Shown here: in pieces, positions 12,390 to 16,028 of the stretch
Numbering within the stretch: the stretch's first letter is position 1
Layout of the letters: each line of letters begins with the position of its first letter
DNA from: Methylosinus sp. H3A
GTDB taxonomy: Bacteria; Pseudomonadota; Alphaproteobacteria; Rhizobiales; Beijerinckiaceae
Assembly (NCBI RefSeq): GCF_015709455.1
Contig: NZ_JADNQW010000007.1
Coordinates: 62,001 to 126,000 of the forward strand
DNA length: 64,000 nt
Reading direction: 5' to 3'
Position numbers and translations under genes: made by a program
The notes under the pieces: generated by a model
Databases searched by the model: none
Seen by the model: the letters and a program-made list of their open reading frames with translations, nothing else
What the model was told of the DNA's origin: nothing

Positions 12390-15300
12390 ATGAGCGCCGT
12401 CGATCGTCAAGTCGATTGGCCGGCCGTCTCGTTCGAGACAGCTCTGGCGCGGCTCGAATCGTCCAGCACGGGGCTGAGCGACGCGGAGGCGAAGCAGCGG
12501 CTCGCTCAATATGGACCAAATCGTCTGCCGACCGGCCGACGGCGCGGCGCGTTCGTCCGTTTCGCGCTGCAATTCCACAATATCCTCATCTATGTGCTCA
12601 TCGCCGCCGCCGTCGTCACCGCCTTTCTGGGACATTGGGTGGACACCGCCGTCATCGTCGCCGTGGTGGTCATCAATGCGATCATCGGCTTCATTCAGGA
12701 AGGAAAGGCCGAGCGGGCGATGGAGGCGGTTCGCGGGATGCTGTCGTTTCACGCGACGGTCATTCGCGACGGCCATCGGCATGTCGTCGACGCCGAGACT
12801 TTGGTTCCGGGCGATGTCGTGTTCGTCCAGTCGGGCGACAAGGCGCCGGCGGACCTGCGCCTTATCCGTGTGAAGTCGCTGCAGATACAAGAGGCGGCGC
12901 TGACGGGAGAGTCGTTGCCGGTCGACAAGGACGTCGCGCCCGTCGCGCCGGATGCGCTGCTCGGCGATCGGTCGTCGATGGCCTATTCGGGCACGGTGGT
13001 GACCTATGGCCAAGGCTCCGGGGTCGTCGTGGCGACGGGCGCCGCGACGGAGATCGGCCGGATCAGCGCGATGCTCTCGGAGGTCGAGGAGCTGACGACG
13101 CCGCTATTGCAGCGCATGGCCGAGTTCGCGCGATGGCTCACCCTCATCATTCTCGTCGTCGCCTTCGCCGTCTATCTGATCGGGACTCTGGCCTGGGGCT
13201 TCTCGGCCGCCGAGATGTTCATGGCGGCGGTCAGCCTCACCGTGGCGGCCATTCCGGAAGGCTTGCCGGCGATCATCACCATCACGCTGGCGATCGGCGT
13301 CGAGCGCATGGCGCGCCGCCACGCCATCATCCGCCGGCTGCCGGCGGTCGAGACGCTCGGCGCGGTGACGACGATCTGCTCCGACAAGACCGGCACGCTG
13401 ACGCGCAACGAGCTCACTGTCCGCACTGTCGCGACCGCGGGCGCGACCTATGAGGCGTCCGGCTCCGGCTATGATCCTCACGGCGGCTTCGCGCGGCCCG
13501 GGCAGGGGGGCGGGCAGGACGTCGGGCGGGACGTCTCTTGCGAGGACGCCGCCGATCTGCTGGCGACGCTGCGCGCCGCCTCGCTCTGCAATGATGCGGT
13601 GCTGCGCGAGGAGAGGGAGGTCTGGACTGTCGAAGGCGATCCGACGGAAGGCGCTCTGCTGACAGCGGCGGTCAAGGCGGGCGTCGAGCTGCGCGCCCAA
13701 GCGCTCGAGCTGCCGCGGACCGACGAGATCCCTTTCGAATCGCAGCATCGCTTCATGGCGACGCTGCATCACGACCATCGGGGCGAAGGCTCGATCTTCG
13801 TGAAAGGGGCGCCGGAGCGCCTTCTCGAGATGTGCTTCTGGCAATGCGACGCCGAGAGCGGCCAGCAGCAGCTCGACGCGGCGTTCTGGATCGCGCGCAT
13901 TCACGAGATCGCGGCGAAAGGCCAGCGTGTGCTGGGCGTCGCGCAGAAGCGCGCCGAGGCTGGCCGACAGCAGCTCGCCTTCGACGATGTGGACAAGGGC
14001 CTCGTCTTTCTCGGGCTCATCGGCCTGATCGATCCGCCGCGCCAAGAAACACTGGAGGCGGTGAGGCTATGCGCGCAGGCCGGCGTCGGCGTGAAGATGA
14101 TCACCGGCGACCATGCCGCGACGGCGGTCGCCATCGGACGGGAGCTCGGGCTCGAGCGCGCCGAGGCGGCGCTGACCGGACATGATCTCGACGCGCTGTC
14201 CGATGTTCAACTGCGCGAAGTGGTCGCGAGCACGACGATCTTCGCCCGCACCAGCCCGGAGCACAAGCTGCGCCTCGTGAAGGCGCTGCAGAGCCAGGGC
14301 CAGATCGTCGCCATGACAGGAGACGGCGTCAATGACGCGCCGGCCCTCAAGCGCGCCGACATCGGCATCGCCATGGGCGTGAAGGGGACCGAAGCGGCCA
14401 AGGAGGCGGCGGAGATGGTGCTGGCGGACGATAATTTCGCCTCGATCGTCGACGCGGTCAGCGAGGGGCGCGTCGTCTACGAGAATTTGCGGAAGACGAT
14501 CCTCTACCTCCTCCCCACCAATGGGGGCCAGGCTCTGACGGTCATTTTCGCGATCGCGATCGGCGACATGCCGCCGGTGACGCCAGTGCAGATTCTCTGG
14601 GTCAATCTCGTCACCGCCGTGACGCTCGGCATAGCGCTCGCCTTCGAGCCGCCGTCGCGTGGAATCATGACGCGTCGGCCGCGCGCCGCGACGGAGCCGA
14701 TCCTGTCGCGCTACTATGTATGGAGGATCGTGCTGGTCTCGATCCTGATGCTCATCGCCACTCTGGGACTCTACGAATACGCCAAAGCGGCAGGCATGGG
14801 GCTCGACCGCGCGCGAACGGTCGCGGTCAACACGCTCGTCGCTTGCGAGGCGACCTATCTCTTCAACGCTCGCTTTCTGTCGGAGCCCTCCATATGCTGG
14901 CGCGGCTTGTTCGGCAGCCGCGCCGTGCTCGTCGCCGTCGGTCTGACGATCGCGCTCCAGGCGCTGTTCACCTATGCGCCCTTCATGCAGGATTGGTTTG
15001 CCACCGAGGCGCTCGATCTTGCGACATGGGCGCGCATCCTCGCGGCGAGCGCCGCGCTGTTCCTCGTGGTCGAGATCGAGAAGGCGGCCTTCGGCTCGAC
15101 GATTTTGCGTCGCTGGGCGCGCGCCGCCTTCGCCCCAACCAGTGGCGCAGTCCGAAGCGGTTGGCGGCGGATGGCGGCCGTCGGCCTGCTTGCGCTTCTC
15201 GCGGCAGGCGGCGGACTGGCCTATCGCGCCCTGCGTCTCGCGCCACGCGAGACGGCGCCTGTCGTGACGGCGTCGGGCGTGGTCCAGCCGGCGTCGATCG

Positions 15301-16028
15301 TTCCGGCGTCGGCGCGCGTGGCTGGCGTCGTCGAAACGATCCTTTGTGATCGAGGAACGAAGGTCGCGGCCGGGCAAATCTGCGCGAAGCTCGACGCGCG
15401 TCCCTTGGAGACAGCCGTCGACGCGAAGCGGACCGCGGTCGTCGCGGCGGAAAAGGCGCTTCGACAGCGCGATGCGCAGCTCGCCACCGCGCGCGACGAT
15501 CTCGATCGCAAGACAGCCGGGCGGCGCGTCTCGCGCAAGGCGCTGGCCATGTCTCGCGCGTCTCTCGAGCGGGCGGAGGAAGCGGCTCGGCGCGCGCAAG
15601 CCATGCTCGCGGCGCGTCGCTCGGCGATGACGGCCGCCGAAAACGCGCTGAGCGAAGCGGCGATCGTCGCGCCGGCGGACGGCGTCATTGTCGCTCGCAA
15701 TATCGAGGTCGGTCGAGACGTCGCGCCCGGCGGCGCTCCGCCCTTCGTCATAGGCGTGAATCTTTCCGTCCTGCGCATCGACATTCGAGCCGCCGAGAAA
15801 AGCGCCGATTTCATCCGTGAAGGAGACGCCGCGACCGTCACGGCAAAAGCTGTTCCCGATCGCCGCTTCTCGGGCGTCGTGCGCGCCGTGCGGCGCAGGC
15901 CGGCGGAAGCGGGCGATCTCGAAACCGCCGAGATCGCCGTGGATGTGGCCAATCCGGAAATCGCCTTAGAGCCTGGAATGACCGCGACGATCGAAATTGC
16001 GGCCGATCCGTCTCGCTCTTTGAAATGA
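12390..16028 (+). CDS. P2-type cation ATPase fused to an HlyD-type periplasmic adaptor
   Basis: One 1212-codon frame carries two complete modules. Residues 1 to about 915 are a cation-pumping P-type ATPase: the N-terminal GLSDAEAKQRLAQYGPNRLP, actuator TGES, helix-4 PEGLPA, phosphorylation site DKTGTLTRNEL (Asp about residue 332), TGDHAATA, hinge MTGDGVNDAPALKRADIGIA, and a full C-terminal helix set. After a basic loop, an extra membrane helix (MAAVGLLALLAAGGGLAYRA, about residues 927-946) leads into an adaptor: lipoyl half (ASARVAGVVETILCDRGTKV), an Ala/Arg-rich alpha hairpin of about 90 residues, second lipoyl half (AEIVAPADGVIVA is the approximate form), and a beta-barrel end. The start at 12390 fits the family N-terminus, though its ribosome site is weak. 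The pumped ion (Ca2+/Mn2+/Na+-type) is not determined. No TolC-type gene is nearby. Confidence 0.88.
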   Translation: MSAVDRQVDWPAVSFETALARLESSSTGLSDAEAKQRLAQYGPNRLPTGRRRGAFVRFALQFHNILIYVLIAAAVVTAFLGHWVDTAVIVAVVVINAIIGFIQEGKAERAMEAVRGMLSFHATVIRDGHRHVVDAETLVPGDVVFVQSGDKAPADLRLIRVKSLQIQEAALTGESLPVDKDVAPVAPDALLGDRSSMAYSGTVVTYGQGSGVVVATGAATEIGRISAMLSEVEELTTPLLQRMAEFARWLTLIILVVAFAVYLIGTLAWGFSAAEMFMAAVSLTVAAIPEGLPAIITITLAIGVERMARRHAIIRRLPAVETLGAVTTICSDKTGTLTRNELTVRTVATAGATYEASGSGYDPHGGFARPGQGGGQDVGRDVSCEDAADLLATLRAASLCNDAVLREEREVWTVEGDPTEGALLTAAVKAGVELRAQALELPRTDEIPFESQHRFMATLHHDHRGEGSIFVKGAPERLLEMCFWQCDAESGQQQLDAAFWIARIHEIAAKGQRVLGVAQKRAEAGRQQLAFDDVDKGLVFLGLIGLIDPPRQETLEAVRLCAQAGVGVKMITGDHAATAVAIGRELGLERAEAALTGHDLDALSDVQLREVVASTTIFARTSPEHKLRLVKALQSQGQIVAMTGDGVNDAPALKRADIGIAMGVKGTEAAKEAAEMVLADDNFASIVDAVSEGRVVYENLRKTILYLLPTNGGQALTVIFAIAIGDMPPVTPVQILWVNLVTAVTLGIALAFEPPSRGIMTRRPRAATEPILSRYYVWRIVLVSILMLIATLGLYEYAKAAGMGLDRARTVAVNTLVACEATYLFNARFLSEPSICWRGLFGSRAVLVAVGLTIALQALFTYAPFMQDWFATEALDLATWARILAASAALFLVVEIEKAAFGSTILRRWARAAFAPTSGAVRSGWRRMAAVGLLALLAAGGGLAYRALRLAPRETAPVVTASGVVQPASIVPASARVAGVVETILCDRGTKVAAGQICAKLDARPLETAVDAKRTAVVAAEKALRQRDAQLATARDDLDRKTAGRRVSRKALAMSRASLERAEEAARRAQAMLAARRSAMTAAENALSEAAIVAPADGVIVARNIEVGRDVAPGGAPPFVIGVNLSVLRIDIRAAEKSADFIREGDAATVTAKAVPDRRFSGVVRAVRRRPAEAGDLETAEIAVDVANPEIALEPGMTATIEIAADPSRSLK

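Follow-up and report, generated by a model that had tools for sequence, protein, structure and literature searches.

What use would a cation pump have for a piece of an export machine at its end? The question is raised by a gene in a stretch of 64,000 nucleotides from Methylosinus sp. H3A (NCBI RefSeq assembly GCF_015709455.1, contig NZ_JADNQW010000007.1, positions 62,001 to 126,000 of the forward strand; this whole stretch is called the window, and position 1 is its first letter), in which a P2-type cation ATPase, an extra membrane helix and a MacA-like adaptor module follow one another in a single polypeptide. Adaptor proteins of the HlyD/RND_mfp type usually have export machines as their partners, and we know of no precedent either for P-type pumps that are coupled to the outer membrane or for adaptors that serve as periplasmic tails. 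No title or opening of an abstract among the papers listed in a literature search pointed to such fusions, most subscription journals lying outside that search. The comparisons described here show that the module and its kin form a single group, attached to the C-terminal ends of otherwise unrelated carriers in methanotrophic Beijerinckiaceae/Methylocystaceae. The best explanation, which is put forward tentatively from sequence comparison, is that this MacA-like module, passed between genes by recombination at their 3' ends, would be a self-associating tail that positions an ordinary cation exporter, and not a duct.

The frame runs without interruption from an ATG at 12390 to a stop codon at 16026–16028 and encodes 1212 residues. 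An in-frame TTG at 12141 is a possible alternative start further upstream, but two relatives, P0002 and P0003, begin at the same methionine as ATG 12390. The preliminary description of this DNA had proposed a complete P2-type ATPase, an added helix and an adaptor in one frame, which is confirmed by the motifs, by Pfam and by TIGR01730. The pump is placed among the P2-like P-type ATPases by its TGES, DKTGT and GDGxNDxP motifs together with PF00122, PF00702 and PF00689. At the adaptor end PF16576 (residues 969–1199, 57.4 against a cut-off of 30) and PF13437 (residues 1092–1196) both match over cut-off, and the NCBIfam model TIGR01730 (RND_mfp) covers residues 958–1205 with 107.7 bits against a cut-off of 94.9. 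P0002 (1205 residues) and P0003 (1206 residues) are 90% and 85% identical to the window protein over the full length, with the same junction, and a database search with the C-terminal part (residues 925–1212; the search needs shared exact words and scored 8000 candidates) found these two; the junction also recurs in many other assemblies. Because the junction is conserved in diverged relatives, the fusion is real and no assembly error, and the two early doubts about it, that neighbouring genes had been joined by mistake or that the junction was peculiar to one assembly, have both fallen away.

The module looks like a spreading protein module, carried on at least seven other protein kinds in related bacteria, namely a P1B ATPase with a hemerythrin-like domain, a P3A H+-ATPase, the F-type alpha subunit, CyoD, AHSA1, a membrane protein and an ATP-binding cassette (ABC) ATPase. 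These further fusions were located through adaptor matches in very long frames and through a module search of 20 genomes that carry pmoA; Pfam was run on eight of them and the remainder were read from the sequence. The P1B ATPase with hemerythrin-like domain and module was found at eight loci (Pfam on two), CyoD with module at five (Pfam on one), AHSA1 with module at three (Pfam on one) and the P3A ATPase with module at two (L047, by Pfam, and L048), and single loci carry the module on a membrane protein without a Pfam match (L235) and on the F-type alpha subunit, the latter between the ATP synthase B/delta and gamma genes (L233). In that locus (L233:1457-5642) the B/delta, alpha::module and gamma frames overlap by four bases each, so that the alpha fusion lies in a normal-looking operon. 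In genome G135 a module with the cysteine pair described below follows a short N-terminal part (L282:2731-3915, the same place as L273).

The fusions are not confined to the genomes searched. With the CyoD part as query, and with length limited to about 216–686 residues so that ordinary CyoD was left out, a database search yielded 319 proteins (E <= 1e-3). Of the 120 that were listed, most combine CyoD with adaptor domains, and some are named from Methylocella. The module of a P3A fusion gave 122 proteins, 120 of them listed (length limited to about 764–2430 residues, 8000 candidates), and when 119 of the listed long fusions were searched again the module was matched in all 119. By crude motif classes these comprise 43 P3A, 28 P2 or P3, 27 P1B, 11 AtpA and 10 others. 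The ABC ATPase fusion, P0179, was a query in this second search and is kept apart from the 119. Some fusions have already been named by automatic annotation in the databases. Three further candidate carriers were not counted: P0208, an adaptor followed by an RNase PH part, looks like a gene-calling or assembly chimera; P0212, which joins a methionine synthase piece, a low-complexity stretch and a free adaptor, is chimera-like; and P0119, from a metagenome, combines CyoD, the beginning of the module and an outer-membrane-factor piece and is probably a chimera. P0241 lies outside this module group.

A tree of 61 rows parts 52 fused modules, among them L273 with its unclear N-terminus, from nine free adaptors with a Shimodaira–Hasegawa-like approximate likelihood ratio test (SH-aLRT) value of 96, obtained by a quick method without bootstrap. 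Some branches in it are long and the order among carriers is unsure. The best solved-structure match of the module profile is MacA, and at locus L294 a free adaptor with the cysteine pair lies directly before a frame that, by eye, reads like MacB. In P0179 the module is preceded by a stretch that matches the hemerythrin end and linker of the P1B fusions (37–48% identity, best E 4e-12); the linker is matched as well by P0191, a P-type fusion from a different class. A swap of 3' ends between two genes would leave just such a stretch as that in P0179, and we infer that recombination at gene 3' ends has probably spread the module.

Fusions of the ATPase itself are found close to home. Of 199 genomes of the family, 14 contain between them 17 open frames in which a P2 or P3A ATPase is fused to the module, and among named contig records an open fused frame is present at 16 of the 80 loci kept, under the titles Methylocystis, Methylocystaceae or Alphaproteobacteria. 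Incomplete copies were also encountered: two contig-record loci start inside the ATPase at a contig end (L079, L089), one is cut by the contig end (L069), one is broken between ATPase and module (L099), and L234 is broken within the ATPase. The plasmid pGW6_1 of Methylocystis rosea carries one fusion, annotated as ‘HAD-IC family P-type ATPase’. Wider samples of the order and phylum, which include some members of the family, were searched with a profile of ATPase helices M5–M10 plus the module, three candidates being scored per genome. Among the matches listed for 397 order genomes, those that span the full profile came only from G000 and G017, both of the window's own family, and in 398 phylum genomes only from these two and from G838, where four stops part two genes. 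In 367 genomes of the class, a module-only profile (E <= 1e-60, six candidates scored per genome) matched in 19, and outside the window the matching frames reach at most 705 residues, too short for an ATPase fusion by their lengths, the G704 frame being the one that was read; that frame (L170) served as a free adaptor in the comparisons. The ATPase fusion was thus not found outside the family in the order, class and phylum samples, where smaller fusions may still occur.

Several arrangements outside the family came up in these searches. In G838, which belongs to a different family of the phylum, a gene related to the ATPase is found at L243 with an adaptor immediately after it and then a frame resembling a normal resistance–nodulation–division (RND) pump; this arrangement was rejected as a precursor of the fusion, since the adaptor is without the cysteine pair, and is treated as a coincidence of neighbourhood. 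Long adaptor frames in G843 and G792 were read as free adaptors with open sequence upstream. L075 (a Methyloversatilis metagenome-assembled genome) and L077 (Methylocaldum) passed the length filter for fusions and were rejected, their C-terminal extension being a different, hydrophobic one: at L075:6765-9983 and L077:6456-9656 the same kind of ATPase stands unfused, with this other extension of about 150 residues.

Within the family the fusions follow the capacity for methane oxidation. The gene pmoA (PF02461) was found in 20 of the 199 genomes, of which 14 have a P2 or P3A fusion and 17 some module fusion (those without are G105, G126 and G172). No fusion was seen in the 179 pmoA-negative genomes by the module search, with 12 candidates scored per genome; 13 of them give matches at E <= 1e-45 in frames of 406–554 residues, and the four that were read (G125, G159, G171 and G183) are all free adaptors. 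Fisher's test for 17 of 20 against 0 of 179 gives 7e-22, a value to be read with the fact that the positives belong to three genera and are not independent events.

The preliminary description had placed the adaptor in the periplasm from the charges around the added helix, and the carriers as a set support that placement. The C-termini of P-type ATPases, F1 alpha, AHSA1 and ABC ATPases are cytoplasmic, whereas that of CyoD is periplasmic, as in the bo3 oxidase of Escherichia coli. In 19 of 22 fusions onto carriers with a cytoplasmic C-terminus or onto unassigned ones, hydropathy reveals a separate hydrophobic peak 34–68 residues before the first cysteine of the module (threshold 1.5; in L240, L226 and L047 the stretch falls below it and is visible by eye), whereas all nine CyoD fusions have only the three peaks of CyoD itself before the module. 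An added helix on carriers that end in the cytoplasm and none on CyoD is what would be expected if the module must be periplasmic. In the window protein the hydrophobic stretch at residues 930–948 has a net charge of +4 in the preceding 20 residues and +1 in the following 20.

Conserved features of the module were counted in the columns of a hidden Markov model alignment; of its 246 rows, the counts cover the listed fused and free loci and database fusions of more than 330 residues, with duplicates and rows of fewer than 170 residues excluded. All 153 fused modules counted have a cysteine pair in the first lipoyl half, against 7 of 20 free adaptors, and the two cysteines of the pair, Cys986 and Cys998, are the only ones in the window module. 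The RLS motif (RxxxLxxxxxxS/T at the hairpin tip) is defined for TolC docking in PMC3391258, and PMC4446572 defines the membrane-proximal domain and holds that RLS conservation is not absolute and the motif not absolutely required. Of the free adaptors, 12 of 20 have the full motif, as against 3 of 57 fusions from the loci and window clade and 11 of 96 CyoD fusions from the database. None of the three members of the window clade has it, there being a gap at the leucine. Moreover, the window protein ends seven residues past its TIGR01730 match and is without the membrane-proximal domain, as is also seen when it is aligned with fusions that keep this domain, and the contig that carries the window (C7) gave no match to an outer-membrane factor (OEP). 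The earlier suggestion that the pump passes its ion to an outer-membrane channel is, on these three grounds, disfavoured for the window protein.

The module is nevertheless maintained in the P2 fusions. Among 21 fused P2 genes, the ratio of nonsynonymous to synonymous substitution rates (dN/dS, Nei–Gojobori) is 0.25–0.59 for the module and 0.09–0.37 for the ATPase in all pairs printed, that is, pairs with an ATPase dS below 0.9 plus four named pairs. In the P2 fusions the module is under purifying selection, and is held more loosely than the pump.

In the preferred reading, the pump would be an ordinary ATP-driven cation exporter that works from cytoplasm to periplasm, and the tail would act on its own carrier and not as an export duct here. 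The window genome holds one strong module (E 2.5e-93, against 7e-22 for the next listed), which must hence act with itself or on its own carrier; an assembly of different module-bearing complexes was also considered and is ruled out in this genome by that single strong module. Because the interfaces of a duct are missing from the window module, self-association and positioning are favoured: the tail may be a self-associating periplasmic piece, ring-forming in the manner of MacA, that gathers the pump into clusters or sets its position in the membrane, and perhaps holds it apart from intracytoplasmic membranes filled with particulate methane monooxygenase (pMMO). The link to these membranes is drawn from the tie to pmoA and from the suggestion, in PMC9445010, that other respiratory enzymes may be kept out of them by pMMO arrays; the abstract of the same paper states that the function and biogenesis of intracytoplasmic membranes are not known.

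Several observations weigh against this reading. The full RLS motif is kept in 24 of 104 rows of the P3A, P1B, P2 and AtpA fusions (rows gapped at all three positions being omitted) and in 7 of 12 further rows of mixed kind. Where the match extends to the last position of the model, a tail of more than 55 residues lies beyond it in 36 of 39 P3A, 18 of 23 P2/P3 and 16 of 20 P1B fusions, and in 0 of 11 for AtpA. Tails long enough for a membrane-proximal domain, and a retained RLS motif, in so many other fusions fit a duct for those proteins; loss of both features is not general among fused modules, since many fusions other than that of the window keep one or both. The constraint on the module is looser than that on the pump, the module ends short of the beta-barrel in 4 of the 17 fused family frames (L020, L021, L044 and L045), which may be decayed copies or a shorter form that still works, so that a complete ring-forming module is not retained everywhere, and AHSA1 is not an obvious thing to position.

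Among the alternatives, a regulatory tail survives best, as an unlikely but serious competitor. By analogy with MacA, which stimulates MacB, the module might sense a periplasmic signal, be it an ion, redox state through the cysteine pair, or envelope stress, and alter the activity of its carrier. The carriers are mostly ion pumps and energy complexes, the cysteine pair is invariant among fused modules, and a single strong module in the genome could act in cis. Its presence in 7 of 20 free adaptors, however, indicates a pair that was inherited and is not specific to the fusions, and neither AHSA1 nor the unassigned membrane protein is known to be a pump. A broader proposal, for which we would also claim little probability, would make the module a mobile periplasmic address or assembly tag of methanotrophs, derived from MacA and freed from export, that sorts or clusters energy-coupling complexes with respect to pMMO-packed membranes. 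Recombination at 3' ends would have carried such a tag onto ion pumps, ATP synthase, terminal oxidase, ABC ATPase and a cytosolic domain, and the tag might sort its carriers by being too tall for a narrow membrane lumen, for example, or by forming rings with its own kind.

It is also improbable that the module is a mere passenger, a recombination-prone 3' segment that has spread without benefit and is tolerated. The many unrelated carriers, the looser constraint, the long branches in the tree, the modules cut before the barrel and the broken copies L099 and L234 would all suit such a segment, yet dN/dS stays below 0.6 in every printed pair of P2 fusions, no fused module has lost the cysteine pair, and CyoD fusions are numerous even with ordinary CyoD set aside. 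A duct, in which the fused adaptors would form a hexameric funnel on an outer-membrane factor and the ion of the pump would leave the cell, is rather doubtful for the window protein. The module is homologous to MacA, which works with MacB and TolC in export, the genome has 26 OEP stretches of its own, and the retention of RLS and of membrane-proximal residues in other fusions has been described; the objection from the motif is further weakened by its not being absolutely required, as PMC4446572 has it. What remains against the duct is the state of the window module itself and its clade, the lack of an OEP match on the contig, and the poor fit of a duct to CyoD, AtpA or AHSA1 as carriers. As for a sequencing or assembly error that fused two adjacent genes, such errors do occur, as the broken relative L099 and the chimeric-looking P0119 testify, but nothing of this kind is seen for the window gene, whose junction is shared by P0002, P0003 and dozens of assemblies with diverged DNA, and an artefact is already refuted, with a residual likelihood close to nil.

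Table 1. Features of the fusion gene and its convergent neighbour (positions in the window; residues in the encoded protein)
Feature	Position	Strand	Basis
Whole gene, P2-type ATPase :: extra helix :: MacA-like adaptor module, 1212 residues	12390..16028	+	single open frame
P2-type cation ATPase part, residues 12–899	12423..15086	+	PF00690, PF00122, PF13246, PF00702 and PF00689 over cut-off
TGES, residues 172–175	12903..12914	+	motif in sequence
PEGLPA of M4, residues 289–294	13254..13271	+	motif in sequence
DKTGT phosphorylation motif, residues 332–336	13383..13397	+	motif in sequence
GDGVNDAP, residues 644–651	14319..14342	+	motif in sequence
M6 NLVTA, residues 739–743	14604..14618	+	alignment with LMCA1
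Extra membrane helix, residues 930–948, positive N-flank	15177..15233	+	hydropathy and charges; same place in P0002 and P0003
Adaptor module, residues 958–1205, no membrane-proximal domain after it	15261..16004	+	Pfam, TIGR01730, alignment with other fusions
Cys986 to Cys998, conserved cysteine pair of first lipoyl half	15345..15383	+	kept in 153/153 fused modules compared
Helical hairpin region, about residues 1006–1089, gap at RLS leucine in tip	15405..15656	+	boundaries from alignment
Second lipoyl half and beta-barrel, about residues 1090–1205	15657..16004	+	PF13437 match at 1092–1196; sub-boundaries from reading of sequence
Convergent neighbour, membrane protein without Pfam match	16103..16885	-	relatives beside the fusion in L013, L014, L059 and L070

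The contig that carries the gene is 151,543 bases long. Part of window positions 28000–50000 matches plasmids of Methylosinus sp. C49 (83% identity over 29% of the query and 94% over 4%), from which the contig is probably itself a plasmid. Open reading frames on the reverse strand at 4943–7031, which we take to resemble an IS66-type transposase set, suggest a mobile neighbourhood. The related fusions give a hint of the ion that is pumped: genes of the small metal-binding protein (SMBP) kind lie nearby at L014 (by Pfam) and on the M. rosea plasmid (by annotation), a family of related neighbours is present at 6 of 24 loci, and these genes would point to a metal cation. No SMBP gene was found beside the window gene.

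Two readings follow: P-type pumps can be linked with the outer membrane, or adaptors have taken on a further role as tails in the periplasm. In one set of bacteria the adaptor now forms the common tail of unrelated proteins, from ion pumps (P1B, P2, P3A and F-type alpha) to a terminal-oxidase subunit, and the tie to pMMO-bearing genomes offers a handle on how methanotrophs organise their membranes.

Compared with known pumps, the ATPase part of the window protein scores best among solved chains with LMCA1 (lmo0841) and SPCA1, with which it shares the catalytic motifs and the N- and C-terminal cation-ATPase domains. It stays below the cut-offs of the Ca2+ equivalog models, with 612.4 against 703.4 for TIGR01116, 671.2 against 798.3 for TIGR01522 and 429.8 against 507.05 for TIGR01517. 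Whereas the Ca2+-ATPase LMCA1 has the aspartate of NLVND in M6, the counterpart of Asp800 of SERCA and a feature of Ca2+ pumps, the window protein has Ala743 there, and an aspartate at this position is also rare among its relatives. In contrast to the P2-type ATPases LMCA1, SPCA1 and SERCA, it adds the extra helix and the adaptor module. With the MacA/RND_mfp adaptors the module shares the adaptor domains (TIGR01730 and PF16576 over cut-off), but it is covalently attached to a P-type ATPase, is without the membrane-proximal domain and has a broken RLS tip, and its score with the model for MacA proper, NF008606 (PRK11578), is 47.1 against a cut-off of 342. The closest named parallels are database proteins with the Joint Genome Institute (JGI) name ‘heavy metal translocating P-type ATPase/RND family efflux transporter MFP subunit’ and, besides these, the P3A fusions of Methylocapsa and Methylocella. 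Both combine the same module with other classes of P-type ATPase, and the papers listed in the literature search gave no description of either. The P1B fusions of the databases differ from the window protein by their hemerythrin-like domain, and the CyoD–adaptor fusions, which comprise far more proteins, bear a module of the same tree group on a quinol-oxidase subunit, without the extra helix.

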